From Prevotella sp. (GTDB lineage: Bacteria; Bacteroidota; Bacteroidia; Bacteroidales; Bacteroidaceae), in contig JAFPVC010000023.1 of NCBI GenBank assembly GCA_017413085.1, positions 1 through 47,782 of the forward strand: a DNA stretch of 47,782 nt. Direction: 5' to 3'. The first letter of the stretch is position 1, and every line of letters starts with the position of its first letter. This document shows, piece by piece, positions 1,222-21,229 of the stretch. The position numbers and the translations under genes were made by a program. The notes under the pieces are model-generated. The model saw only the letters and a program-made list of their open reading frames with translations, had not been told where the DNA came from and ran no database searches.

Positions 1222-3543
1222 TTATTTGCTCTTCAGCGTTAAACCAACGGTAGGCAACGTACTCTTGATGCTCACGCTTACGGCACCCTTCTTCTGCGTG
1301 CTGCGGATAACGAGGAGGGCACGACCCTTCCAAGTCTTTACATGCGATGAGGTGTAGGATTCTGTATCCTTCAGGTCGGCAGAGGCGAATGCCAACAGTG
1401 TACCAGCTCCCTTGATAGTTGCCTCACAGGGGATGGCGGCTTCTGGTACGAGCGTGCCCTGCTTGTCAAGGACTTCAATGGTAACAAAGGTAAGCGACTG
1501 ACCGTCGGCAGTCATCACGGTGCGGTCGGGGGTGAGGCGCAGACGGGCTGGTTCGCCAGCGGTCTTCAATGTCACGCTTTCGCCACCAGCCTCGGCGCGG
1601 AGCGTACCGACCTTATAAGGCACAGAGAATACGGCCTTGAACTCAGTGTCGCGGCTCACCTGCTTCGTACCGATAAGCTGATCGTCGAGATACAGCTTTA
1701 CCTCGGGCTGATGGGTGTATACTTCCACCTCGACGGGCTTGCCTTCCCAGCCGGGCCATGTCCATGATTCCCATGTGGGCCAAACGCTCCACATCGTCGT
1801 CTTGATTTCTCCATGATATCCATTCGGTTCTTTCACGGCCATGTATAGCTGTGTGTCCTTATTCCACAACATCTCCCTATAATGACTTATCGGTTTCCTC
1901 CAGCCTGTGATGTCAACATCGCCACAGGGAGCACCGTGCCATTCAGGCTGTCCGCCCTTAATCCATGACTCGCCCTCGCGCTCACCTTTATAATAATTGC
2001 GGCCGATGCCGCTTTCGCCCAGATAGTCGAGTCCTGTCCACACAATGTCGCCCACGACATAGGGGAAGTCATTCACTACGGCCCAGTTGCTGAATGCGTC
2101 GCGCGGATAGCTCTCCGTCTGCCAGATGACTCGCTTGGGGTCGCGCTCATGGTCACCGGCGTGCTTGAACAGCATGTAGTTGTAGCCCACCACATCGAGC
2201 ACCTCGGCGTGCGGGTCGTAGATTTCCCAATCGCGGTCCCAGGCGCAGAGAGCCTCGGTTACGGGGCGCGTCGCATCTTTCTCAAGGATGGCCTTCTTCA
2301 TCTGCCGTGCGGTATAGACGACACGGATGTCCTTGCGCTCGATGACCTCGTTGCCTATGCTCCACGAAACGATGCTCGGATGATTGCGGTCGCGCAGCAC
2401 CATAGCGTGAATGTCATCGCGGAAGCAGGAGTCGATGACGGTGGAATAGTCATAGGGATTCTTCTGCGTGCGCCAGCCGTCGAAGGCCTCATCAATAACG
2501 AGCATGCCTATCGAGTCGCAGGCATCGAGGAAAGCTCTGGTTGTGGGATTGTGCGAGGTGCGGATAAGGTTGAAGCCTGCCTCCTTCATCTGGCGTACCT
2601 TACGGATTTCCGCATCGTCGAAAGCGCGGGCACCCAGCACACCGTCGTCGTGGTGTACGCAGGCACCGTTGATGAGTGTCGGCTTGCCATTAAGTATGAA
2701 GCCCCGCTCTGCATCGAAAGAGAACGAGCGGATGCCGTATTTAGCAGTCTGATGGTCGATGGTTGTGCCATTCTCCTTCAGCTCCACCTTCGTTTCATAG
2801 AGTGTAGGACTCTCTGGCGACCACAGGCGTGGATTATTGACGAATAGAGTCGTACTCACGGTCTTGCTCTCGCCAGCCTTCACGGCTACCATCAGCTGCG
2901 CACCGCCCACCACGACGGCGGCATTGCGGTCAGCCTGCGACTCATTCTGCACTGTCACCTCCACTTGCACCCTGGCCTTGTCGGTGTTCACCTCAGGTGT
3001 AGTAACGAATACGCCGTTCTCAGAAATGTGCAGTGCGGGCATAGTCTCTAACCACACATGACGGTAGATGCCCGAACCGCTGTACCATCGGCAGTTAGGC
3101 TGTTCGGAGTTGTCAACCTTGACGACTATCTCGTTGGCTTCCTTGGCCGAAGCGGTTTTCAGCATGTTAGTGATATCTACAGTGAACGGTGTGTAGCCAT
3201 AGTGGTGCTGCCCAGCCTTCTGCCCATTCACGAAGACCTCTGCCTTCTGATAGACACCCTCGAAGTGCAGTTTGACAAGTTTATCTTTCAACTCTCCCGC
3301 ATCAACTCTAAACTCTTTCCGATACTCACCCTTGCCAGCCTCGAACCATCCGCCGCCAGTGCCCGTAGCACCTTTTCCAGAATTTGGACCTTCGAAGATG
3401 TCCCAGTCGTGCGGCAAATCCACATTGACCGTCTTTCCATTGTGAGTAAACTGCCAGCCGAAGTCAAACAGTTGTCTTTTTGTCTGTGCCGATACCGTCA
3501 CCATTGTGATGAGCAGTATCATCAAAATCATGATTTTCTTCAT
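1222..3543 (-). CDS. Secreted GH2 beta-galactosidase-like glycosidase
   Basis: A glycoside hydrolase family 2 protein. From the N-terminus: a signal peptide ending near VTVSAQ, the jelly-roll sugar-binding domain, an Ig-like domain, the TIM barrel, then a DUF4982-like/Ig-like C-terminus. The barrel shows GFNLIRTSHNP, the acid/base Glu in SWSIGNEV (about residue 399 from this start) and the nucleophile Glu in IWQTES (about 477). I chose the ATG at 3543 because MKKIMILM is a typical signal-peptide start; an in-frame ATG lies at 3561. Family members release beta-linked galactose or related sugars in the periplasm; the exact substrate cannot be read here. The next gene starts 4 bp after its stop. 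Confidence 0.9.
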   Translation of the reverse strand: MKKIMILMILLITMVTVSAQTKRQLFDFGWQFTHNGKTVNVDLPHDWDIFEGPNSGKGATGTGGGWFEAGKGEYRKEFRVDAGELKDKLVKLHFEGVYQKAEVFVNGQKAGQHHYGYTPFTVDITNMLKTASAKEANEIVVKVDNSEQPNCRWYSGSGIYRHVWLETMPALHISENGVFVTTPEVNTDKARVQVEVTVQNESQADRNAAVVVGGAQLMVAVKAGESKTVSTTLFVNNPRLWSPESPTLYETKVELKENGTTIDHQTAKYGIRSFSFDAERGFILNGKPTLINGACVHHDDGVLGARAFDDAEIRKVRQMKEAGFNLIRTSHNPTTRAFLDACDSIGMLVIDEAFDGWRTQKNPYDYSTVIDSCFRDDIHAMVLRDRNHPSIVSWSIGNEVIERKDIRVVYTARQMKKAILEKDATRPVTEALCAWDRDWEIYDPHAEVLDVVGYNYMLFKHAGDHERDPKRVIWQTESYPRDAFSNWAVVNDFPYVVGDIVWTGLDYLGESGIGRNYYKGEREGESWIKGGQPEWHGAPCGDVDITGWRKPISHYREMLWNKDTQLYMAVKEPNGYHGEIKTTMWSVWPTWESWTWPGWEGKPVEVEVYTHQPEVKLYLDDQLIGTKQVSRDTEFKAVFSVPYKVGTLRAEAGGESVTLKTAGEPARLRLTPDRTVMTADGQSLTFVTIEVLDKQGTLVPEAAIPCEATIKGAGTLLAFASADLKDTESYTSSHVKTWKGRALLVIRSTQKKGAVSVSIKSTLPTVGLTLKSK

Positions 3544-3566
3544 TTGAGAATTGCTATTCATATTGT

Positions 3567-4028
3567 TTATAGTAGAATTTCCATCGTTGTTTTCTGTACT
3601 TTCATACCCATATTCTTATAGAAACTTAATGCAGGGTCGTTGCCTTCCCATACATTCAGGGTAATGTTGTTGCAGCCTATAGACTTTGCATAGTCACGTA
3701 CAAACTCGTACAATGCCGTTCCGACGTGTTTGCCACGAGCCTGTTCATCTACGCAGATGTCATCAATATACAGTGTCTTGATGTCCTGGAGCAACTTGTC
3801 ATCCCTGACCTCCGTAATCTGACAGAATGCATGCCCCAAGACCTTCCCGTCATCATAAACGAATACAGGCCTCCATTCATCTTCGAGCAGGGTTTCAAGT
3901 TCCAGTTCGCTATATTTTGTTGTGTTGGGTTTGAACAAATCAGGACGTATTACATGATGCACCATATCCACTTGATGCAGGAGTTCAATAATAGCCTGTA
4001 TATCTCTTTTTTCAACCTTCCTAATCAT
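3567..4028 (-). CDS. GNAT-family N-acetyltransferase
   Basis: A compact GNAT domain fills the protein. The acetyl-CoA-binding region reads DDICVDEQARGKHVGTAL, where R/Q-x-x-G-x-G/A appears as QARGKHVG, followed by helix residues ALYEFVRDYA and the typical ending NVWEGNDPALSFYKNMGM. It transfers an acetyl group from acetyl-CoA to an amine; the substrate is unknown. It is the first gene of the leftward operon. Two in-frame ATGs lie close together (4034 and 4028); I prefer MIRKVEKRDI, the usual GNAT start. Its stop is 23 bp from the chosen GH2 start. Confidence 0.88.
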   Translation of the reverse strand: MIRKVEKRDIQAIIELLHQVDMVHHVIRPDLFKPNTTKYSELELETLLEDEWRPVFVYDDGKVLGHAFCQITEVRDDKLLQDIKTLYIDDICVDEQARGKHVGTALYEFVRDYAKSIGCNNITLNVWEGNDPALSFYKNMGMKVQKTTMEILL

Positions 4029-4080
4029 AGTCATAACAATGATTTACCTTTTGCAAGTTATATTTTTGCAAATTCCACGA

Positions 4081-4112
4081 CAAAGATACAAAAATAATAC
4101 TGAATCAGCAAA
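4081..4112 (-). promoter_or_regulatory. Bacteroidetes-type promoter for the GNAT-GH2-MBL operon
   Basis: Read on the - strand, TTTG (4109-4112) and TATCTTTG (4081-4088) are exactly 20 bp apart, matching the -33/-7 consensus. The expected start is near 4074, giving a leader of about 45 nt before the GNAT gene. Confidence 0.8.
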
Positions 4113-4187
4113 TAAAACCGCAGAATAACACATATTGTGCTACGTTTTGTTCAAAAAATCATCAGAAACTATATGAACAACAAGAAA

Positions 4188-4219
4188 AAGGGACTTGCTC
4201 AGAAGTGAACAAGTCCCTT
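4188..4219. terminator. Terminator-like hairpin behind a gene-tail remnant
   Basis: AAGGGACTTG (4188-4197) pairs with CAAGTCCCTT (4210-4219). On the - strand the bases just upstream read IVTVQAAVEE-stop (about 4239-4271), an orphan coding tail. The same tail-plus-hairpin layout recurs at 44525-44640. Confidence 0.6.
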
Positions 4220-4281
4220 ATATATGTAAGAGTGATAATTACTCCTCTACTGCTGCCTGTACGGTCACTATGATGATAAAT

Positions 4282-4333
4282 AAAAACAATGAGTCCCATG
4301 TATCACTATGACACATGGGACGGATTGTTTTTT
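4282..4333. terminator. Terminator of the interrupted host gene
   Basis: An extended stem pairs AACAATGAGTCCCATGT with ACATGGGACGGATTGTT around an 11-base loop. It has A- and T-runs on its outer sides and lies 34 bp past the stop of the interrupted leftward gene. Confidence 0.7.
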
Positions 4334-4366
4334 GACCTTGTAATTGTTTGAATTTCAAACGCCGTA

Positions 4367-4784
4367 TTACTCCTTGATATATTTCGCTCCGTTTTCTATT
4401 ATGATTCCTTTGGCATCCTCATCCACCTCCATACCTTGGATGTTATATGTCTTTGTCGACTTTGAGTTTACCGCATCAGCCTTTGCGTTCGCAACCCTGG
4501 TGGAATAATCTTTCAACAAAGTTTTAAGGTTTATTATCTCCACATTATAGTTTCTATTAAAATTGGCATCCGTTGACACCCAGCAATTGTATTTCAGATA
4601 AAATAGTTCACCGCTATAAAAGAATTGTTCTGACCCTACAGGAAGTATCAATAGTGTTTCGCCTCTCTCATTAACAAGTCTAACATTATCCTTATGTCCA
4701 TCGCTATATGCATCTTCCAAAGGAAATATATAGTCAAAATCCACATCTATTTTCTCATCAAAAACGTACTTGTTCAGATAGTTT
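4367..4784 (-). pseudogene. 3' half of a host secreted-protein gene, cut by the prophage
   Basis: In frame from the prophage border the sequence reads NYLNKYVFDEKIDVDFDY and ends YNIQGMEVDEDAKGIIIENG...YIKE. That ending resembles the YN-x-QG...KGI-x-I-x-NGKK tail common on secreted Prevotella proteins. There is no convincing start inside this piece; only a GTG at 4744. It is the continuation of the signal-peptide-bearing fragment at 36489-36845. Removing the prophage and one copy of the shared heptamer gives ...DELNY-LNKYVFD... with no frame change, about 255 residues in all. A terminator follows. Function of the intact protein is unknown. Confidence 0.85.
4778..4784. repeat. Target-site duplication, left copy
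   Basis: ATAGTTT here and at 36489-36495 is the longest shared border sequence. A 5-bp Mu-style duplication would be any 5-mer inside it, so the exact border is uncertain by up to 2 bp. Confidence 0.8.
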
Positions 4785-4794
4785 TAAGGGGGAT

Positions 4795-5426
4795 AAAACG
4801 AGATGTGGTAGAAGGGAGAGCGAGGGAAAAAGCAACGAAAGAATTGATGGATAGTGCGTTAGAGAGGGAAGGGGGATGAAAGAAGCGTGACAAAATTACA
4901 AAACGAAATGTGACATTTATATAACATCGGTGTTACATGGGAGGGGAATTTGAACGGTGTTCAATCAATAGATGTTACATGGCGGCCATACGGTCGCTTT
5001 TTTTGTGCCTTATAGCTTGTGTTTATGCGGTTTTAGGGGTGTATGGTGGGTGGTGCGGCAAGGTGTTCAAAATGGTGTTCAAAGGGGCTTAAATGGGTGT
5101 TTTTGCAGGTGGGGTATTTGGAGGTGGAAAGTGGTGAAAATATGACTTAGGGTGACAGTTAGGGTGACGTTTAGGGTGACAGTTAAAAACGAAATGTTCC
5201 AATTAGGGTGACACTTAGGGTGACACTTTGCGGACTTTTTTTTGCCGATTAGAGGGGAACTATGACCAAAATGAGGGCGAAAATGGGGGTTTTTACGGCT
5301 TTTTAGGGGGTACTTTGCAGGGGGTGGAGGGTAAAAAGTAGGGTTCGGAGGGTACTTTTTTAATGATGTGGCTATTTATCAGGTGATTAGCGAAAAAACG
5401 GTGTTTTTATAAGGTACATTTCGTGT
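4795..5426. promoter_or_regulatory. Left-end transposase-binding site cluster
   Basis: Four related sites: AAAACGAGATGTGG (4795-4808), AAAACGAAATGTGACA (4900-4915), AAAACGAAATGTTCC (5186-5200) and, in the opposite orientation, GGTACATTTCGTGT (5413-5426). The same core recurs in inverse orientation three times at the right end, as expected for MuA-type sites L1-L3/R1-R3. The 5186 site sits between two blocks of TTAGGGTGACA repeats. Bases 4785-5540 contain no supportable gene. Confidence 0.75.
5147..5225 (+). repeat. Five TTAGGGTGAC repeats with 12-bp periodicity
   Basis: Copies of TTAGGGTGACA/G begin at 5147, 5159, 5171, 5203 and 5215. Within each block the period is 12 bp, close to one helical turn. 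A 32-bp step between blocks holds the transposase site at 5186-5200. A repressor operator or a Mu-like internal activation sequence is a reasonable guess; no direct evidence is available. Confidence 0.8.
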
Positions 5427-5543
5427 GTTGTGGCGATGGTATCGCCGCCTACGAGGTAAGGAACTGCTCAGCGGGAGATGTGACGGGTGGCAATGGTATT
5501 GCCACATACACAACGGTGGAGGGGCGAGGGTGATGGCACAAGA

Positions 5544-5570
5544 AAGCCGCTCATGGTGTTTGAGCGGCTT
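5544..5570. terminator. Terminator behind the repressor gene
   Basis: AAGCCGCTCA (5544-5553) and TGAGCGGCTT (5561-5570) form a perfect 10-bp stem with a 7-base loop. It lies 26 bp past the repressor stop codon. Confidence 0.75.
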
Positions 5571-5596
5571 ATATAATATATATGTATGTGGGATGC

Positions 5597-6238
5597 TTAG
5601 AAGAACTTGCTGATGGAGCCAACTACCTCGAATATTTTTATGATGCGTGATATGTCGAACTCCTGATCGTCATATCCGCTCTTGTTGACGGGTACGTATA
5701 ACAGTGTGGATGGAGACGAGCCGCGACGCAGTATCTTGATGGTGCGTATGGTATCGAGCACTACGGCGTATGTCTCGCCATACTGTATGTCCTGTATGGT
5801 ACATTCACGCAATGCGATGATGTCGCCGTGGTTGATGCGCGGTTCCATTGAGTGGCCGGTGACGTTGCACCAGACGGTGGCTCTCTCCAGTCCCGGCACT
5901 ACTATGTTGCAGGCTGGTAGTCTTGTCTGGTCGTTGATTATCTCGCTGAAGCCACCGAAGAAGTCAACATCATAATAAGGTGTGCCTACAGAGAGGTCGA
6001 AGGATACCTGCTTCTCATTGTTATTAAGCATATCACCTTCTCCTGTCAGTAGCCAATGAAGGTCTATGTCAGAATATTTGTATAGGATATTTTCTAACTT
6101 ATCTGTTCCTATGGCCCCGCCATTTTTGAGGCATTTGCCAAAGGAAGCATTAGACATGCCTACACTCTTCTCAAAGGCAGATACTGATATACCCTTTGAG
6201 TCTAAATATTCTTTTAATCGAGATACAATATTAGACAT
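5597..6238 (-). CDS. Phage repressor, HTH plus S24/LexA-like domain
   Basis: A 213-residue repressor. The N-terminal helix-turn-helix covers roughly residues 1-65 (SRLKEYLDSKGISVSAFEKS...ASFGKCLKNG...LHWLLTGEG). The C-terminal S24 domain has the serine in GHSMEP (Ser120) and the lysine in IRTIKIL (Lys158), matching the LexA/CI Ser-Lys dyad. I see no obvious Ala-Gly or Cys-Gly cleavage dipeptide in the linker, so self-cleavage on SOS induction is plausible but unproven. It is transcribed away from the early operon and should maintain lysogeny by acting on the overlapping promoters at 6285-6376 and perhaps on the 12-bp repeats near the left end. Confidence 0.9.
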   Translation of the reverse strand: MSNIVSRLKEYLDSKGISVSAFEKSVGMSNASFGKCLKNGGAIGTDKLENILYKYSDIDLHWLLTGEGDMLNNNEKQVSFDLSVGTPYYDVDFFGGFSEIINDQTRLPACNIVVPGLERATVWCNVTGHSMEPRINHGDIIALRECTIQDIQYGETYAVVLDTIRTIKILRRGSSPSTLLYVPVNKSGYDDQEFDISRIIKIFEVVGSISKFF

Positions 6239-6284
6239 AATTCTTGATTAATTTGTGTAAAATGAGAAAATAATCTCAATTTTA

Positions 6285-6316
6285 TTTGCAAATATCGAGA
6301 ATATTTTCTAACTTTG
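6285..6316 (+). promoter_or_regulatory. Early lytic promoter
   Basis: TTTG (6285-6288) and TAACTTTG (6309-6316) are 20 bp apart, a perfect Bacteroidetes promoter. It drives the early operon starting at 6414 with a leader of about 90 nt. Confidence 0.85.
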
Positions 6317-6344
6317 CAACGACATTCAAAATGTGACTGCGCTA

Positions 6345-6376
6345 CAAAGTTACGAATAATAACCGAGTGCGCCAAA
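6345..6376 (-). promoter_or_regulatory. Repressor promoter, facing the early promoter
   Basis: Read leftward, TTTG (6373-6376) and TAACTTTG (6345-6352) are 20 bp apart. Transcription would start near 6339 and run through the early promoter to the repressor, so the two promoters point at each other with 28 bp between their -7 boxes. Confidence 0.8.
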
Positions 6377-6413
6377 AAAAACGTATTAAAATAATCAAAA
6401 AATTTCAAGTGGT

Positions 6414-6590
6414 ATGAAAAGACGAATTGTAGTGGACCGTGGCAGAGTGAACGACATTGCCCATGTGTTGAATCTGACGAGAGAGACCGTCAGCCGTTCG
6501 CTAAACTATCAGAGCAACTCGATGCTGGCGCGCAAGGTGCGCTTCGTGGCTAAGAGTCAGTATGACGGTGTGGAGGTAGGAAAAGACTGA
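6414..6590 (+). CDS. Small HTH DNA-binding protein (Ner-like position)
   Basis: A 58-residue basic protein beginning MKRRIVVDRGRVNDIA. The segment DIAHVLNLTRETVSRSLNY is a clear helix-turn-helix resembling LacI-type headpieces, and almost nothing else is present. It is the first gene after the early promoter and lies opposite the repressor. That is the position of ner in Mu or cro in lambdoid phages, so a role in shutting down the repressor or early promoter is likely by position. It was found by reading the frame directly. Confidence 0.72.
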   Translation: MKRRIVVDRGRVNDIAHVLNLTRETVSRSLNYQSNSMLARKVRFVAKSQYDGVEVGKD

Positions 6591-6635
6591 AGGATGGAAG
6601 AATTGAAAAATTGAAGTATAAAAAAGGAGGAAATT

Positions 6636-6857
6636 ATGAAAGACGATATGAAACGGATATTCGGCAAGGAATGGACGTGGTTCCGGAGGCTGAGCCTTGT
6701 GGACAAACTGAGGAGCTTCTGGTTCTGCTGGAGCCTGTGCCTGGTGGGTTGCGTGAGTTGTGACGCACATCCTTACGTGCTGGTTGCGCTGCTGCTGAAC
6801 TTCATGGCGAGCGCTGCAAGCGCTACGAGGCTGCCGCTGGATGAGTATGAGGGATGA
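6636..6857 (+). CDS. Small early membrane protein, unknown function
   Basis: A 73-residue protein with a charged N-terminus (MKDDMKRIFGKEWTW), then two hydrophobic stretches (FWFCWSLCLVGCVS and YVLVALLLNFMASAA). It probably crosses the inner membrane once or twice. An unusually strong Shine-Dalgarno (GGAGG, 7 bases before the ATG) fixes the start, and most neighbours lack one. Position between the Ner-like gene and the transposase resembles the early accessory genes of Mu. I do not recognise the family; superinfection exclusion or host-inhibition roles are possible but unsupported. Confidence 0.6.
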   Translation: MKDDMKRIFGKEWTWFRRLSLVDKLRSFWFCWSLCLVGCVSCDAHPYVLVALLLNFMASAASATRLPLDEYEG

Positions 6858-6867
6858 GCGGTGAGGG

Positions 6868-6963
6868 GTCGCTGTGATACAGCGACATACTGAACACTGA
6901 GGACGGACAGCGACATACTGGACACCGAGAACGGACAGCGTCATGCCGGACAACAAGAACAAA
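6868..6963 (+). repeat. GTCGCTG hairpin copy 1 plus three 28-bp tandem repeats
   Basis: GTCGCTGTGATACAGCGAC (6868-6886) is a 7-bp stem with a 5-base loop. It runs into three diverging 28-bp repeats starting CAGCGACATACTG at 6880, 6908 and 6936. This is the only copy of the hairpin in the early operon; four more lie in the leftward late operon. Confidence 0.8.
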
Positions 6964-6989
6964 ACTAAGAACCATAAAACTGAAGAATT

Positions 6990-7184
6990 ATGAGACAGCC
7001 TGACAAGAACAGAGTGAGGAACGCCATGCGGCACGTAGAGGTGGCAGCAAAGCTGCTTTCGTATATCAGGGACGAGAACCTGGACTGCGGCAATGAGCAC
7101 TACCGCAACATGACGGCAGCATCGCTGCACGATGCGCAGCTGATGCTCAAGCAGTGGAAGAGACGCATAGACATCAACGACTGA
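6990..7184 (+). CDS. Small early protein, unknown function
   Basis: A 64-residue, largely helical protein with many charged residues (MRQPDKNRVRNAMRHVEVAAKL...LMLKQWKRRIDIND). No signal peptide or membrane segment. It ends 28 bp before the transposase gene on the same strand and lies in the early operon. I cannot name a family. Codon use matches the adjacent transposase, which supports it as a real gene. Confidence 0.6.
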   Translation: MRQPDKNRVRNAMRHVEVAAKLLSYIRDENLDCGNEHYRNMTAASLHDAQLMLKQWKRRIDIND

Positions 7185-7212
7185 AAAGACAAGAAAGGTA
7201 TCAAAGGTACAC

Positions 7213-9276
7213 ATGGAGTATTACAACAACATATTGTGCGTGACCTACGCAGAACTGACGGAGGGCGACGATGCCGTAATCACGGCTGCCACGCTGCGAC
7301 AGAACATGCGCCGCGGCAACATACAGTGTGCGCGCCAGGGGAAAGGCGAAGGCAACTACGCACTCTACATCTATGCGTCCCTGCCTGAGAAGTACCGCAT
7401 GAGATACGAAGAGAAATACGGCGACCCGAAGGCGGTGCTGAAGAAGCAGCCTGCCGACATACATGCACTGGCAGACCGCAGAGCCAGGGAATATTACGAA
7501 GCGTTTGAATATGAGTTGAACGGTGTTCAGACACGACTCAGCCGGAAACTCATCGACGAGTACACGGTGAACGCCAGCGTGCTTGGCCACCTGCTGAAAC
7601 GCATCGGTGAACTCAGGGCCTACACCGCCGCCCTCGGCGGAGGCAAGCGCAGCGACCTCTGGGACATCATCTACGGTGAGAGCGAGCAGATGCGCGAGGA
7701 GTGCGGCCACACGCTGCCGAAGAACATCAAGCGCCTGCGCGACAGGGTGAACGCATATAAGACTGACGGCTACCAGTCTGTCATCAGCGGCAAGATAGGC
7801 AACTGTAACACGCTGAAGATAACCGAGGAGGCTGGCCGCCGGCTCGTGGCACTGAAGCGCAGCAAGGTGCCTGTGCTGACAGATCGCCAGATATTCGACC
7901 AGTTCAACAGCGAGGCAGCGGAACGCGGATGGAAGCCACTGCGCAGCATCAGCGGCATGAAGGCATGGCTCAGCAGTCCGCAGACGGAGCCGCTGTGGCA
8001 CGACGCAGTGCACGGGGAACTCAGCGCGCACCAGAAGTATGACCGCCGCCACAGAACTGCACTGCCTCAGATGCGCGATGCACTGTGGTACGGTGACGGT
8101 ACGAAGCTCAACCTGTACTACAGGGACGATGACGGCAAGGTGCGTACGACAAGCGTATATGAAGTCATCGACGCATACAGTGAAACCTTCCTCGGCTACT
8201 GCATCAGCGACACCGAGGACTACGAGGCACAGTACATGGCATACAGGATGGCAGTGCAGGTGAGCGGCCACAAGCCATACGAGATAGTGCACGACAACCA
8301 GGGCGGCCACAAGAAAGCAAATTCAGCCGGAATGCTCGACAAGATATGCCGCCTTCACCGCACCACCGCACCATACAACGGAGCATCGAAGACCATAGAG
8401 AGCGTATTCGGCAGGTTCCAGCAGGAGGTGCTTCACAAGGACTGGCGCTTCACCGGTCAGAACATCACGGCAAGGAAGCAGACGAGCCGTCCCAACATGG
8501 AGTTTATCGAAGCCAACAAAGACCAGCTCTACACGCTTGAGGAACTGAAGGCAGCCTATGTGAAGGCACGCACTGAGTGGAACGAGATGAAACACCCTGC
8601 CACTGGCGAGCGACGCATAGACATGTACCAAACGAGCGAGAACCCCGAGACACCGACAGTCACCACCGCCGACATGATAGATATGTTCTGGGTGACGTGC
8701 GACAGGATGAGCACCTTCACCAGCAGCGGCATAGAGATAACAGTCAAGGGCAGAAAGCGCCAGTACGAGGTGATGAGTGCACCGGGCGTGCCCGATACGG
8801 AGTGGCGCAGGCAGCACACCTGGCAGAAGTTTGTGGTAAAGTACGACCCATACGATTTCAGCAGCATACGGCTGTACTGGAAAGACAAGGCAGGAGACCT
8901 GCGCTTCGAGCGTGTGGCAGAGCCTTACATCGTAATCCACCGTGCAGTGCAGGAGCAAACAGAAGGCGAGGCACTGTTCATACGCCACCAGCAGAAGGAG
9001 GCAGAGCAGAGCCGCATAGAGCGTCAGGTGGCAGCACGCGAGATAGAACACAGCGAGGGAGTGGCACCGGAACAGCACGGACTGACCTCGCCAAGGCTCA
9101 AGGGAGTGCGCAGCGACGTGCAGAGGCAGATAGACCGCCGCACGAGGAAGTACGGACGCGCCCCAGAGGAACTGAGCATCGGCAGGGTGACGAAGATTGT
9201 CAGCAACATAGACTGGCGCGACGTGGAGAAGGAAACCGCACCGATAGACGAGCGCAAGGTTGCGGGGAAACTTTGA
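7213..9276 (+). CDS. MuA-like DDE transposase
   Basis: A 687-residue transposase that integrates and replicatively transposes the phage. The N-terminal 80 residues look like the MuA-type winged-helix DNA-binding region. A helical site-binding segment follows. The DDE catalytic core spans about residues 285-410 with Asp295 (YGDGT), Asp361 (VHDNQGG) and Glu396 (TIESVFGRFQQE). The beta-barrel and a basic C-terminal tail come next (ERQVAAREIEH...DRRTRKYGR). In MuA the tail contacts MuB. It should bind the AAAACGAAATGT sites at both ends. The stop is followed directly by a gene-junction repeat. Confidence 0.93.
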   Translation: MEYYNNILCVTYAELTEGDDAVITAATLRQNMRRGNIQCARQGKGEGNYALYIYASLPEKYRMRYEEKYGDPKAVLKKQPADIHALADRRAREYYEAFEYELNGVQTRLSRKLIDEYTVNASVLGHLLKRIGELRAYTAALGGGKRSDLWDIIYGESEQMREECGHTLPKNIKRLRDRVNAYKTDGYQSVISGKIGNCNTLKITEEAGRRLVALKRSKVPVLTDRQIFDQFNSEAAERGWKPLRSISGMKAWLSSPQTEPLWHDAVHGELSAHQKYDRRHRTALPQMRDALWYGDGTKLNLYYRDDDGKVRTTSVYEVIDAYSETFLGYCISDTEDYEAQYMAYRMAVQVSGHKPYEIVHDNQGGHKKANSAGMLDKICRLHRTTAPYNGASKTIESVFGRFQQEVLHKDWRFTGQNITARKQTSRPNMEFIEANKDQLYTLEELKAAYVKARTEWNEMKHPATGERRIDMYQTSENPETPTVTTADMIDMFWVTCDRMSTFTSSGIEITVKGRKRQYEVMSAPGVPDTEWRRQHTWQKFVVKYDPYDFSSIRLYWKDKAGDLRFERVAEPYIVIHRAVQEQTEGEALFIRHQQKEAEQSRIERQVAAREIEHSEGVAPEQHGLTSPRLKGVRSDVQRQIDRRTRKYGRAPEELSIGRVTKIVSNIDWRDVEKETAPIDERKVAGKL

Positions 9277-12411: not shown

Positions 12412-12459
12412 ACAACAAAATAGGGGTGTTTCAGTCGAAACATCCCTATTTTTGTTGTT
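12412..12459 (+). terminator. Early-operon terminator
   Basis: A long stem of AAAATAGGGGTGTTTC and GAAACATCCCTATTTT with an AGTC loop, extended by flanking ACAAC/GTTGT. One mismatch interrupts the stem. It separates early from later transcription. Confidence 0.85.
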
Positions 12460-14728: not shown

Positions 14729-15169
14729 CTAAAGCATTGTGGGTCTTACTCCGTCGCTCTGTGTCTGCCAGCGTGAGTTGTCTGCCAGGGTGTCGGTGGG
14801 TAGCGTGGGTGCTCCGTCGATGGTGACGTCGCCGTTCATCACGCCCTTGAGCCATTCTATGGCACGGTCGTAGCGTTCCTGCCTTATCTTCGACATCTTG
14901 TAGGGGTTGTGCTGACAGAAGATGTGATACACCGTGATGTCGATGGCAAACATAAGGATGAGCTGGTGACGGTCGGTGCCACGAGCAGAGAAGATGGCAT
15001 CGCAGTCATACTGCTTGCTGAGGTACGAGCGCATCTCGCTCACCGCCCTGTCTTCGCATATCTCTACTATCTGCGGGTCGTAGGTCTCTGAATTTGTGCG
15101 CAGCAGTGAGTCGAGTATCTCGCGGTGTATCGTAGCGTCGTAGTCTTTCAGGGTTATGAAGTTGTCCAT
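14729..15169 (-). CDS. Mu gp36-like head-tail protein (DUF1320)
   Basis: A 146-residue protein with the DUF1320 layout: an N-terminal helical region (ATIHREILDSLLRTNSET), then AVSEMRSYLSKQYDCDAIF, then an amphipathic stretch ending SKIRQERYDRAIEWLKGV, and a hydrophilic tail. In Mu, gp36 lies among the head-tail connection genes. Here it is placed between endolysin and holin, so lysis and connector genes are interleaved. Confidence 0.8.
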   Translation of the reverse strand: MDNFITLKDYDATIHREILDSLLRTNSETYDPQIVEICEDRAVSEMRSYLSKQYDCDAIFSARGTDRHQLILMFAIDITVYHIFCQHNPYKMSKIRQERYDRAIEWLKGVMNGDVTIDGAPTLPTDTLADNSRWQTQSDGVRPTML

Positions 15170-15243: not shown

Positions 15244-15900
15244 CTAAAGCAGCACCTGCTTGGCTCGATCGATGTATTGCTGGCACTCTGTCCAACCTGT
15301 CAGACCGCCGTTTATTCTGCGGCGTATGCCCATGCCGTTGTCCTTGTTTGCCATGGCGAGGCAGTTCTTGGCGAAGAAATGTGCTGCACTGCGGAATGCT
15401 CCGGTGCGTCCTGCCAATAGGTCCGGCTGCTTCACTACGTCGTAGCCGCACCACTTGGCATACTCCTGGTAGTTGGCCTTACCGGTGTAGCCTATCAGAC
15501 CGCGACCTCTGTATCGCCATCCGTCGCCGCTGTCACGACTGCCGTTGCCCATGCGCATGGCATAGACGTAGTTGGCAATCTTCTCCGGCTTGTGGGCATA
15601 CTGCATAGCCTGCTCCATGGTGATGAAGCGTGCCGGCCACATGGTGCGCAGTCCCTTGGCTGAGTAGTTGAGGTTTTCTTCTGAGTTGCGCAGGCATCCG
15701 CTTTCCACCGCCACGTTGGCGAGGAAGTGCACCCAGTGGAGCGGTGTGGTGATGCCGCACTCCTTGGCGTAACGGTTGAGCAGTGCAGTGGCTTCGTCGG
15801 CGGTCATTGGCCTGCCGTCTTTCAGCCAGTTGCGGTTGCTCCTTATGTTCTTTTCTGCGTTAGGCATTATTGCCAGCAGCTGCTGTGTGGTTATCTCCAT
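15244..15900 (-). CDS. GH19 chitinase-like endolysin
   Basis: A 218-residue enzyme of glycoside hydrolase family 19. The catalytic Glu sits in LANVAVESGCL, followed by NLNYSAKGLR; the family signature RYRGRGLIGYTGKANY and the closing RRINGGLTGW are present. Phage members cut the peptidoglycan glycan strand at lysis. There is no signal peptide, so export needs the nearby holin. It ends the stretch downstream of the MuF gene; a 280-bp gap holding an RNA-like unit separates the two. Confidence 0.9.
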   Translation of the reverse strand: MEITTQQLLAIMPNAEKNIRSNRNWLKDGRPMTADEATALLNRYAKECGITTPLHWVHFLANVAVESGCLRNSEENLNYSAKGLRTMWPARFITMEQAMQYAHKPEKIANYVYAMRMGNGSRDSGDGWRYRGRGLIGYTGKANYQEYAKWCGYDVVKQPDLLAGRTGAFRSAAHFFAKNCLAMANKDNGMGIRRRINGGLTGWTECQQYIDRAKQVLL

Positions 15901-16059: not shown

Positions 16060-16091
16060 TTTGGTGGTTTGAAATTTTGTTTGTAACTTTG
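16060..16091 (+). promoter_or_regulatory. Isolated + strand promoter inside the leftward operon
   Basis: TTTG (16060-16063) and TAACTTTG (16084-16091) are 20 bp apart, a perfect match. No protein gene lies downstream on this strand for 5 kb. A terminator follows within 70 bp. Confidence 0.8.
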
Positions 16092-16096
16092 CAATG

Positions 16097-16182
16097 TCTT
16101 CAATGACTACCCGCTGAGTATGCGTGGGGATTGGGCTTTATCGTACCGTCCCATTTAGGCTGTCTTCGGATAGCCTTTTTTT
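16097..16182 (+). ncRNA. Candidate small RNA of about 85 nt
   Basis: The unit is bounded by a consensus promoter and an intrinsic terminator (stem AGGCTGTC/GATAGCCT with a TTCG loop at 16157-16176, then a T-run). The only ATG frame inside is 7 codons. Local GC-rich segments (CCCGC...GCGTGGG and GGGA...TCCC) could pair. It runs convergently toward the MuF gene, and its 3' end touches the MuF stop codon. It would be fully complementary to the MuF-endolysin intergenic part of the late mRNA. It matches no RNA family I know. Expression is inferred from signals only. Confidence 0.6.
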
Positions 16183-17572
16183 ATTGTTCAATGCGTTTCC
16201 TAAACTCCTTATAGAAGTTCCTTTCTGAAACCATATACTTTTCTATTGATACCATTTTTTTGCCGACTGCCACCAGCACTTCCAAAGCTTCGCTGTTTAT
16301 CTCGAAGTATTGTTTGATTTCAGTGGCCATCTTGTTAGTTGGGTAAGTCGTGCACAGATTAAGGAATACTCTGTTCGTTTGTCCAACCGACTCTTTCAGT
16401 CTGCTTCCAATAGAACCTGTCCCTGTAATGGTTTTCAGGTCGTACATCTTATATACTCCTTTACGTGAGAATATGTAGTCTGCACTCCGAACTCCTTTTG
16501 GATTTGGCAGAAGAAATACTTTGTACCCATGCTTTATTGCTTTTTTTGCTCCTGCTAAAAGATTAGCGTAGTCAGAACTGTCTTTGCTAATGGCGGACAA
16601 TATATTTTTTTCAACTTTCTTGTATATTTTTAGTTCAGTGAGTTGACGTAGCTGACGAATATATTCTGCACCAGAAAGATTTGAAAGTTTGGCGAATATA
16701 TTCTTTGCATCAATGTCGCCACTCATCTTGTTTACAACAGCATCAATTCTGGTGCAGTGTCGGCAGTCCTTCTTCTTCTGATTCCTGAATAGCAGCTTCA
16801 GGCGGTTTTTCAGACTGCCGCCCTTGTTGGCGAAGCACTCGCTGCATGACTTTGGGAAATATGGATGCGTGTCGTTGAAGATATGGCCGTCCTTGCCAGG
16901 ATTGTTCTCCAGTCCTTGGTGCGGTGTGGCACCACTGTCACTGCCGTCAGAGGGTGGCAGCACTATCGGGTCATCGTTCTGCTCCAACGTACACTTGCAG
17001 TTCCATCGGTCGCCGGGGTGATGTTCGTTCCAGAACGGATGATCCACAGGAAGGTTCACACGGCGCAGCCAGTAGGAACGGTGCTTTGTCTCGGGTTCCT
17101 TGCTCGTGGTAGGCATCCAGCGCAGGTTAGGCATGATATCCTTGTCACGCTCATACTCCTGCCAGTCGGCAGCATTGTGCGCACGTATCACCGCAGTGTC
17201 ATACTCAGTCTTGAGCCATGCACCGCACTGGTGGCTCGCTATCTTCTGCACATCGTCACGCCACTGACTGAACGGCTTCAGTTTGCCATCCGGGCTAATT
17301 AGCTGACGCTGCATCTCACTACCCATGGTATGAACCTTGAAGGCGGCAAACACCTCGTTACCGTGGCGAAGCTCACGCAGGAAGTTATCTTCAAGCGTAG
17401 GCACTTGCGACTGCACCAGCCCCTCCACCGTGGCATCGTTGATGACGCGCAGCACCTCGCGCCACATTCCTGCCTCAATGCCGTTCTGTTCCTTCACGCC
17501 GTGCTCATAGACATACCTCGTGAAAGCATCGAGTATGTCGGCATCCACCCTGACCTCTGCGGCATTGTCCAT
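16181..17572 (-). CDS. MuF-type minor head protein with C-terminal toxin-like domain
   Basis: A protein of at least 463 residues. The N-terminal 220 or so match the Mu gpF/SPP1 gp7 head-morphogenesis domain (KHRSYWLRRVNLPVDHPFW, HPGDRWNCKCTLEQ). A Cys-rich linker follows (CSECFANKGG, KKKDCRHC). The last 160 residues resemble CdiA-CT/BECR-type tRNase toxin domains: NPKGVRSADYIF (Asp365), YKMYDLKT (Asp378, Lys380), then an RLKESVGQTNRVFLNL helix-strand. This part is visibly more AT-rich than the rest. MuF-toxin fusions are a known class of phage polymorphic toxins. No immunity gene lies downstream. Coding sequence appears to continue upstream of the ATG (SLYYGDAHCSCC), so the start is uncertain. 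Confidence 0.8.
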   Translation of the reverse strand: MDNAAEVRVDADILDAFTRYVYEHGVKEQNGIEAGMWREVLRVINDATVEGLVQSQVPTLEDNFLRELRHGNEVFAAFKVHTMGSEMQRQLISPDGKLKPFSQWRDDVQKIASHQCGAWLKTEYDTAVIRAHNAADWQEYERDKDIMPNLRWMPTTSKEPETKHRSYWLRRVNLPVDHPFWNEHHPGDRWNCKCTLEQNDDPIVLPPSDGSDSGATPHQGLENNPGKDGHIFNDTHPYFPKSCSECFANKGGSLKNRLKLLFRNQKKKDCRHCTRIDAVVNKMSGDIDAKNIFAKLSNLSGAEYIRQLRQLTELKIYKKVEKNILSAISKDSSDYANLLAGAKKAIKHGYKVFLLPNPKGVRSADYIFSRKGVYKMYDLKTITGTGSIGSRLKESVGQTNRVFLNLCTTYPTNKMATEIKQYFEINSEALEVLVAVGKKMVSIEKYMVSERNFYKEFRKRIEQ

Positions 17573-17640: not shown

Positions 17641-18990
17641 TCAGATCATCGTTGCCCCGCTCACCGGCGAGGCTACCGCGAAAAAACTCTTGAGGCGGTT
17701 TTTCAGGGATGAAGGTTGATTGGATGAAGGTTGAATGTTTGTTTGTTTTGCTGTGTCACCAGATAATATCTCCTCCATCATCTTTTTTCTTTCCTCACTC
17801 ATCTTCTTCTGTTCGTCGTAGTTCTCCGGCTTGGCAATGGCGAAAGTCTCATAGAGCCAGTCATCATCCATAGGCAGTCCCATGGTGTGCAGTCCCTGCA
17901 CTATCTCCAACTGCGTCTTCGGGTCGGTCTTATCCTTGCGTGCATACACGAACTCACCGCCCTCCACGTTGAAGCCCAGTTGCTGGAACACGGGGCGCAT
18001 GTCGTAGTTGAGCACGTTGAGGATGGTTTCGCGGTCATCCTCGTTCATTGACTGCTCCTCTTCACGGTGCACCGAACCGAGAGCCTGCGTGCCCGTGTCC
18101 TGTGCATCGGTAGTCAGGGTGTTGCCCAGCACACGGATGGAAATCTTCGCATCCCAATAGTCGGCAAACTGCTTGTATAGTTCGCCAGAGCCGGTCTTGT
18201 TGCCTGCCTCCACCAGACGGAGGTCGCTGCCCGATGGGTGGATATACACCGCATTGGTGCCCTGCGCCCTTGCATCGGCAATGAGGCGGCGGCGTGCCTC
18301 CTCGTCGCCGGCATCGTAGGTATATTCGCGTATGGGCATACCGAAGATATTGCAGAACTTCGCCCAGTCGCTCATGTCGCCGCGCTTGTAGAGAACGGCG
18401 GGAAGCAGTTCGGCGAAGATGCCCAGTCCACGCTCAGAACCCACGAACATCATGTTGTCGAACTCATCGATAGGCACACCGTCCTGATCGCCCTGGAAGC
18501 GCAGCAGTCTGCCACGCACAGGGTCGTAGTGCTTGCGGTTGATGAGGTCGAAGCGTATGTTGCCGTCATCGTCGGTATAGAACTGGAAGAGCGAGAAGCC
18601 CCAGAACTCAGCCATGATGATTTCCTTCCTCAGTTCACGGAACCACGGCGAGCGCAGCTGTCGCGTCACCTCCTCGTCGGTCACGCCGTCGCGCTGGAAG
18701 GCGATGGGGAAGCCCGTAACGCCACGCAGGCGCTTGGCGAGCGTGCCGGAGAGGTGAAGGTCGAGCATGGCAGAGTCGTACATGTCGTACAGCCTTGCAC
18801 GGTTGGAGTAGTCTATGCTCCTGGCGAGCAACAGCGACTGCATGTAAGCCTTCATGTCGAACATGAACACTTCGGGCATCTGCAGTATCACGTCGGGCTG
18901 ACGCTGTCCCGGCTCGGTGCGCATGCCGCCCTGCTGTATGCGGTTCTGCTTGTGTTTGAGCAGTGATTTAACGGTGTTTGAACGTTTCAT
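17641..18990 (-). CDS. Portal protein, Mu gp29-like (DUF935)
   Basis: A 449-residue portal. It forms the ring through which DNA enters and leaves the capsid. Recognisable parts are YDSAMLDLHLSGTLAKRL, IIMAEFWGFSLFQF, the DUF935-type GLGIFAELLPAVLYKRG...DWAKFCNIFGMPIREY, and ISIRVLGNTLTTD. It lies between terminase and MuF as in Mu. Near its 3' end is T-TTT-TTC in frame (17686-17680), where a -1 slip would enter the MuF frame. The C-terminal SLKNRLKSFF resembles SLKNRLKLLF in the MuF protein. A GTCGCTG hairpin lies 19 bp upstream of its ATG. Confidence 0.9.
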   Translation of the reverse strand: MKRSNTVKSLLKHKQNRIQQGGMRTEPGQRQPDVILQMPEVFMFDMKAYMQSLLLARSIDYSNRARLYDMYDSAMLDLHLSGTLAKRLRGVTGFPIAFQRDGVTDEEVTRQLRSPWFRELRKEIIMAEFWGFSLFQFYTDDDGNIRFDLINRKHYDPVRGRLLRFQGDQDGVPIDEFDNMMFVGSERGLGIFAELLPAVLYKRGDMSDWAKFCNIFGMPIREYTYDAGDEEARRRLIADARAQGTNAVYIHPSGSDLRLVEAGNKTGSGELYKQFADYWDAKISIRVLGNTLTTDAQDTGTQALGSVHREEEQSMNEDDRETILNVLNYDMRPVFQQLGFNVEGGEFVYARKDKTDPKTQLEIVQGLHTMGLPMDDDWLYETFAIAKPENYDEQKKMSEERKKMMEEILSGDTAKQTNIQPSSNQPSSLKNRLKSFFAVASPVSGATMI

Positions 18991-21197: not shown

Positions 21198-21229
21198 TTT
21201 GCACACATCGACGGAATAGCGTAATTTTG
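21198..21229 (+). promoter_or_regulatory. Rightward late promoter
   Basis: TTTG (21198-21201) and TAATTTTG (21222-21229) are 20 bp apart, with the same -7 box as the leftward late promoter. It should serve the capsid-tail operon. Confidence 0.75.

Follow-up and report, generated by a model that had tools for sequence, protein, structure and literature searches.

A conserved small RNA unit convergent with a MuF toxin gene of a Prevotella phage: a candidate RNA antidote

Contig JAFPVC010000023.1 of a Prevotella sp. genome (assembly GCA_017413085.1) carries a Mu-like phage and, tail to tail with the gene for the phage's MuF minor head protein, a compact unit made up of a promoter, an RNA of ~86-90 nt and an intrinsic terminator. 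The whole contig, a single stretch of 47,782 bases in a genome of 2.83 Mb, is referred to here as the window. The unit probably encodes an RNA antidote, acting as antitoxin or as immunity factor against the CdiA_C-like PD-(D/E)XK nuclease domain with which the MuF protein ends, a reading given a probability of about 0.72. At the level of sequence comparison, the evidence consists of the promoter-RNA-terminator arrangement, the covarying structure formed by its hairpins P1, P2 and P3 and its terminator, a near-constant tail-to-tail pairing with the toxin domain, and the persistence of the RNA after toxin loss.

The Bacteroidetes-type promoter, comprising TTTG, a 20-nt spacer and TAACTTTG, lies exactly where the first-pass annotation had placed it, and the TTCG-loop terminator described there was likewise recovered with both its stem and its T run (Table 1). 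The motif TTTG-N18-21-TAnnTTTG has five matches in the window against 0.46 expected. The other four exact promoter matches lie at 4081-4112 (-), 6285-6316 (+), 6345-6376 (-) and 21198-21229 (+). Situated on the plus strand between the MuF and endolysin-like genes, the unit runs opposite to the neighbouring late genes, as had been stated, the portal, MuF, endolysin-like and gp36 genes all being on the minus strand, and each of the six reading frames of 16093-16182 contains a stop, in keeping with the claim that the unit holds no protein frame. Read on the plus strand, the stop codon of MuF is TTA at 16181-16183, and it overlaps the end of the terminator's T run, the RNA's end thus meeting the toxin stop in the way first described. 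Scans of Rfam at the gathering threshold gave no family for the whole window or for 14 related loci, and at E<=10 the window RNA had five weak matches, the best at 0.29 and none plausible. A DNA search in named phages left the unit without a match. The literature searched, outside which lay preprints and most subscription papers, yielded no account of such an RNA; this and the Rfam scans are consistent with the earlier remark that no RNA of this kind was known to have been described.

That the unit is more than a chance arrangement rests on its conservation, seen in the recurrence of its core, in the promoter, core and terminator of relatives and in the covariation of its stems, and not on fold energy or on a generic terminator scan of the region, which gave no excess (8 against 10.3 expected). 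A 19-nt core of the RNA has a single match in the window at <=3 mismatches, against 0.01 expected, and two public collections hold 16 contig stretches (2 viral, 14 genome) with an exact copy, in which promoter, core and terminator recur together. A near copy on a different contig of the window's own genome, 86% identical over 113 nt, has a different terminator and no adjoining MuF gene. A pattern search with 2 mismatches gave matches in 12 of 398 same-genus genomes, about half of these being chance matches by eye; covariance model R1, built from 14 sequences, matches 50 of the 398 at E<=0.01, with the weakest matches inspected in part. Across aligned copies the promoter box and the three hairpins are kept and the terminator stem and P3 vary by compensated pairs, P1 grows from 3 up to 8 base pairs in diverged R1 members, and P2 alternates between CCGC/GCGG and CGGG/CCCG. 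The box TAnnTTTG stands upstream of 34 of 35 homologues, the exception being L080, and variant boxes occur in L189 and L111.

Covariation, proposed earlier as a check in related prophages, was found in both stems counted. With arms picked by position only, 97.7% of P1 cells pair (43 sequences) against 90.4% when arms are swapped between sequences, and 95.0% of P3 cells (45 sequences) against 88.3%; in each case 0/2000 shuffles reached the observed value. Two alignments were kept out of these counts, the MAFFT alignment A4 of 50 RNAs, which misaligned P1 and P2, and the covariance-model alignment A5, which is biased towards its model and includes a weak match at window 4920-5004. Some members of the family are elaborated: a second P3-like hairpin is seen in the RNAs of L148, L171, L180, L185 and L187, and an insert of ~90 nt between P1 and P3 in those of L152 and L174. 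Locus L105 (G241:C14) holds three RNAs within 3.8 kb (5175-8935), with no toxin, near an open reading frame (ORF) that resembles a DNA methyltransferase by eye; where RNA copies stand in tandem, in L104 and L105, every copy is preceded by a promoter of its own.

The proposed partner of the RNA is a domain of 170 residues, mixed alpha/beta, with a nuclease motif. At E<=0.01, CdiA_C was the only Pfam family found in 15 toxin members, matching 12 of them, and the best predicted-fold match is CdiA-CT, so that the domain agrees with CdiA_C (PF18451), a PD-(D/E)XK nuclease with the CdiA-CT fold. The protein as a whole has the features of a MuF polymorphic toxin, namely a MuF domain, a gene position after the portal gene and a C-terminal toxin domain. 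Searches of PADLOC and NCBIfam with the toxin gave nothing relevant, and when PDB sequences were searched with the toxin profile, all matches were to ribosomal protein L23, with E values no lower than 0.12. Among 295 genomes of the order, the toxin was found in G619, G653 and the window's own genome, which makes the close toxin family nearly genus-limited in that sample.

The toxin profile matches 79 of the 398 same-genus genomes, with 135 places among the matches listed, and 70 loci, about half of those places, were inspected, mostly by rank and with the long fusion proteins of G180, G218, G142 and G343 added. Among 71 distinct C-terminally complete toxins, an RNA of the window family is convergent with 69 and another RNA with 2. 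A promoter box with a P1 signature, convergent and 99-199 nt from the stop, accompanies 68/71 toxins, compared with 9/312 other stops in a control, several of which adjoin orphan copies of the RNA. At L152 the RNA is present, with its insert, by eye; at L111, one of the control loci, it stands behind a box that reads TATCTTTA, and for that reason the toxin there, additional to the 71, failed the box rule. In L191 and L192, the most distant of the MuF fusions, the RNA at the toxin end is promoter-driven but of another kind. In the window and in the inspected toxin-selected loci the RNA is convergent and has its own promoter, and the pairing extends beyond MuF, many toxins being standalone and the linkage spanning different backbones and loci. 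Seen from the RNA side, 48 distinct RNAs picked by the RNA model adjoin a full toxin in 15 cases, a partial one in 12 and none in 21, the partial toxins being the 3' end of the gene in 11 cases and a chance match in one (L046). Orphan and remnant loci retain the RNA where the toxin is gone or cut to its last codons, copies with no adjoining toxin including those of G000:C27 and L105. A toxin almost never found without the RNA, together with an RNA often found without the toxin, is the pattern expected of toxin and antidote.

Several observations weigh against this reading. Taken as a single sequence, the window RNA has an unexceptional fold energy (z -1.76), and the arm shuffles of P1 and P3 ignore shared ancestry. 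The toxin survey is about half complete with respect to the 135 places and is not fully blind to the RNA, since all 15 seeds of toxin profile A3 came from RNA-adjoining loci. Of the 21 RNAs with no toxin, three appear to be spurious and another, L097, is 48 nt away from the end of its contig. The distances among RNAs are correlated with those among toxins (Mantel r 0.62, 0/999), though common descent of a unit inherited together suffices to explain this. L038 and L050 carry open frames of 81 and 83 aa in the gap after MuF, making a protein immunity factor possible at these loci, and convergent placement would suit a cis-regulatory RNA too.

As proposed, the RNA would be transcribed in the lysogen, the domain would be a toxic nuclease, perhaps one that cuts tRNA, and the folded RNA would bind the domain and block its activity, as suggested by the conservation of its structure and by comparison with ToxIN and AbiF-RCd22. 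The lysogen might thereby survive its own late MuF protein as well as incoming virions with the same toxin, and orphan copies may be kept by host genomes as protection. The loading of MuF toxins into the virion is itself a hypothesis put forward in the available part of Jamet 2017 (PMC5576092). The first-pass annotation had offered two functions for the RNA, of which the role of an element that controls the toxin-like domain or gives immunity to it is well supported in comparative genomics by the 69/71 paired toxins, the orphan copies and the pairing outside MuF; antisense action on the late MuF-endolysin message finds no support, since there are toxin-less copies and many standalone toxins, and complementarity to the body or start of the toxin mRNA was not detected.

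A related mechanism would be silencing of the toxin gene, either through base pairing of the RNA with read-through toxin mRNA or through transcriptional interference, with no need for the RNA to bind protein. It would account for the strict convergence and for an RNA ending on the toxin stop, and some type I toxin-antitoxin systems do overlap at their 3' ends. It is nonetheless unlikely. In 66 toxin-RNA pairs, complementarity of the RNA to its own toxin's coding region or start showed no excess over other toxins (p 0.48, 0.54) or over shuffled RNAs (p 0.96, 0.81); toxin-less copies are conserved, interference does not require covarying hairpins, and a toxin delivered by a virion would presumably be beyond the reach of a silencing RNA. 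Direct binding is preferred because the RNA fold is conserved in orphans, because the 66 pairs show no such excess, and because a virion-carried MuF toxin could be countered only at the protein level.

Near-constant pairing and structural conservation would suit any ribonucleoprotein partner, including an RNA on which the nuclease depends to be active, to fold or to be stored, whether as cofactor, as guide or as a packaged mimic of its substrate. Such a role is improbable: a cofactor would not be expected to outlast its toxin or to stand beside no more than the toxin's last codons, and CdiA-CT relatives are not known to require an RNA partner. Least probable is a small RNA acting on other phage or host mRNAs, its link to the toxin being mere hitch-hiking: orphan copies exist and the loop CUUUAUCG is conserved, as such an RNA might lead one to expect, but the RNA is linked to one toxin domain across different backbones and loci, and a different RNA appears where the toxin clade differs.

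Convergent RNAs of other kinds accompany more distant relatives of the domain. A second structured class is found in 6/6 distant domain relatives from two other families of the order (L193-L198) and in the MuF fusions L191 and L192, with changes on both sides in 11/16 predicted pairs (8 sequences, several pairs being broken in some), and phage PJN03 (L211) has an RNA that resembles this class by eye. A convergent RNA is present in 5/5 viral contigs that carry the full domain, two of the five being already in the set and two looking identical; the RNAs of L201-L203 were judged by eye to be a divergent form. A sixth viral contig, L204, encodes a Firmicutes-type MuF whose domain matches 32 phage records, 31 of them from Streptococcus. 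Seven of the 32 were inspected—six Streptococcus phages (L205-L210) and bajarodcaudo virus 4 (L212)—and in all seven, as in L204, a convergent sigma-70 promoter with 10-11/12 consensus matches drives a hairpin RNA of 50-70 nt at the stop of a CdiA_C-type toxin; between the end of the -10 box and that stop lie 46-69 nt. A promoter of this kind lies at 40-120 nt from 3/110 other stops of the same loci. Being related, these phages are not independent cases. The toxin is 91-113 nt from the next gene in 6/7 of the inspected phages and 27 nt in P9, and in most of them small hypothetical ORFs follow the toxin; as such ORFs are immunity candidates in the available part of Jamet 2017 (PMC5576092), a protein immunity factor is possible in the Streptococcus-type phages. 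A further class, GAATA(A)GCA...TGC(T)TATTC, was noticed by eye, convergent with LPD3-like C termini. The L033 MuF protein matches LPD3 at E 1.4e-10, and in L033 and L047 the GAATA(A)GCA-type RNA seems to stand in tandem with a window-type RNA.

RNA units were also seen within repeat arrays. In L042, from metagenome-assembled genome G422, a window-type RNA and a 64-residue toxin stub lie inside an array of eight 35-nt repeats of the clustered regularly interspaced short palindromic repeat (CRISPR) type, a ninth copy lying near the end of contig C82, with 274-1665 nt between repeats. The array adjoins a type II cas1 gene (276 bits) and a cas2-like gene below the cut-off, and 5/7 intervals (274-426 nt) contain, by eye, a promoter, RNA and terminator convergent with an ORF end; of these five ends three are mutually similar and one has a weak LPD3 match. 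Coverage is given as a low 1.46 for this contig, and none of the 398 same-genus genomes has the repeat at 3 mismatches; for these reasons the array is kept apart from the main claim; such arrays, if not assembly artefacts, would be stores of RNA antidotes. In L043 (1146-1530), an RNA and a 52-residue toxin stub are flanked by identical copies of a 34-nt repeat, two in all and separated by 351 nt, which we take to resemble a type II CRISPR repeat. A wider proposal, tentative and judged rather less probable than even, is that RNA immunity is a general and overlooked answer to CdiA_C-type nuclease toxins, several apparently unrelated classes of convergent promoter-driven RNA in Bacteroidota and Streptococcus phages serving phage MuF toxins and a large standalone toxin-RNA family, with some hosts collecting RNA genes and toxin stubs between CRISPR-type repeats beside cas1-cas2 as an antidote library.

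The minus strand of the window carries the portal, MuF, endolysin-like, gp36 and tail genes of the Mu-like phage, and in the 281-nt gap after MuF no ORF of >=30 aa is present on the MuF strand. Among the late genes, an inverted repeat of 16 bp with a 4-nt loop, followed by T-rich DNA, lies at 12417-12452 (+).

Table 1. Coordinates of the RNA unit, neighbouring genes and related features (window positions unless a locus is named)
Feature	Position	Strand	Details
Bacteroidetes-type promoter	16060-16091	+	TTTG 16060-16063; spacer 20 nt; TAACTTTG 16084-16091
Small structured RNA, candidate RNA antitoxin, ~86-90 nt	16093-16182	+	covariance model R1, 104.5 bits
P1 hairpin GUC-UUCAAU-GAC	16096-16107	+	3 bp in window; relatives up to 8 covarying bp
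P2 hairpin CGC-UGAGUAU-GCG	16112-16124	+	relatives CCGC/GCGG or CGGG/CCCG
P3 hairpin GGGAU...GUCCC, conserved loop CUUUAUCG	16127-16152	+	A-U to G-C double changes
P4 intrinsic terminator, UUCG loop	16157-16182	+	stem 16157-16176; T run 16176-16182
gp36	14729-15169	-	
Endolysin-like gene	15244-15900	-	weak GH19 match
CdiA_C-like PD-(D/E)XK nuclease toxin domain of MuF, proposed partner of the RNA	16184-16693	-	
MuF minor head protein, C-terminal toxin domain, 463 aa	16181-17572	-	PF04233, E 4e-7
Portal	17641-18990	-	Portal_Mu match, Pfam
Second-class RNA	L191 4054-4179; L192 4131-4255		
GAATA(A)GCA-type RNA	L033 8640-9504; L047 60-300; L042 intervals 285-668, 3418-3717, 4070-4495		L042 intervals in reverse orientation
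Repeat array	L042 663-4947 (G422:C107:16663-20947); L072 15363-16541; L064 1501-1829		

The accepted view is that immunity proteins neutralise polymorphic toxins, and an RNA immunity factor, if true, would change the annotation of such loci and could explain those with no recognised immunity gene. It would add one toxin fold and one gene order to the known RNA-antidote systems, and would offer a nuclease-inhibiting RNA of ~90 nt as a tool, open to an easy two-part assay.

Among known systems, the convergent gene order recalls type I toxin-antitoxin systems with a 3'-overlapping convergent RNA, such as txpA/RatA of B. subtilis. Systems of that type have small hydrophobic toxins and a long antisense overlap, whereas the domain here has 170 residues and a nuclease motif. 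Over the coding and start regions compared in the 66 pairs, no antisense pairing was detected beyond the 3' junction. The domain shares its predicted fold and active-site motif with CdiA-CT nuclease toxins (PDB 4g6v, 5j4a, 4zqu), in which, however, the immunity factor CdiI is a protein. As in the MuF polymorphic toxins of Jamet 2017 (PMC5576092, available part), the MuF gene is directly downstream of the portal gene and its product ends in a toxin domain; the immunity factors assumed there are proteins, whereas in the window a convergent RNA occupies the slot and the 281-nt gap holds no ORF of >=30 aa on the MuF strand. Type III toxin-antitoxin systems (ToxIN, CptIN and TenpIN, as described in the available part of PMC5086642) likewise combine a nuclease toxin with a small structured RNA, proposed here to neutralise directly, and have a link to phages. 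Their antitoxin, however, lies upstream of the toxin as tandem repeats in one operon with a terminator between, an order found neither in the window nor in the inspected toxin-selected loci, where the RNA is convergent, with one unit per promoter (a P3-like hairpin being duplicated in a few relatives). The type III antitoxin is pseudoknotted; modelling of the RNA here covered nested pairs and gave the hairpins P1-P3. At E<=0.01 the Pfam matches of the 15 toxin members are to CdiA_C only, with no homology to ToxN, CptN or TenpN, the absence of ToxN from the list of fold matches carrying no weight. In AbiF-RCd22 of the C. difficile phage phi027, an RNA of ~100 nt neutralises a toxic protein in cis and in trans by direct binding, according to the available part of PMC12373285. 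The window likewise has a phage-encoded RNA on that scale beside a putatively toxic protein, with an antidote role so far proposed, but the RNA of AbiF-RCd22 is upstream and co-transcribed, its toxin belongs to Abi_2/AbiD/F and its motif is in Rfam (RF03085), a family that the window RNA does not match in Rfam, just as Pfam scans gave no Abi_2 match. If the inference holds, the unit would act like a type III system or AbiF-RCd22 yet be a member of neither, since its RNA is a single convergent unit with a promoter of its own and its toxin has another fold, and it would extend the MuF polymorphic toxins, for which protein immunity factors are assumed, to immunity by RNA.
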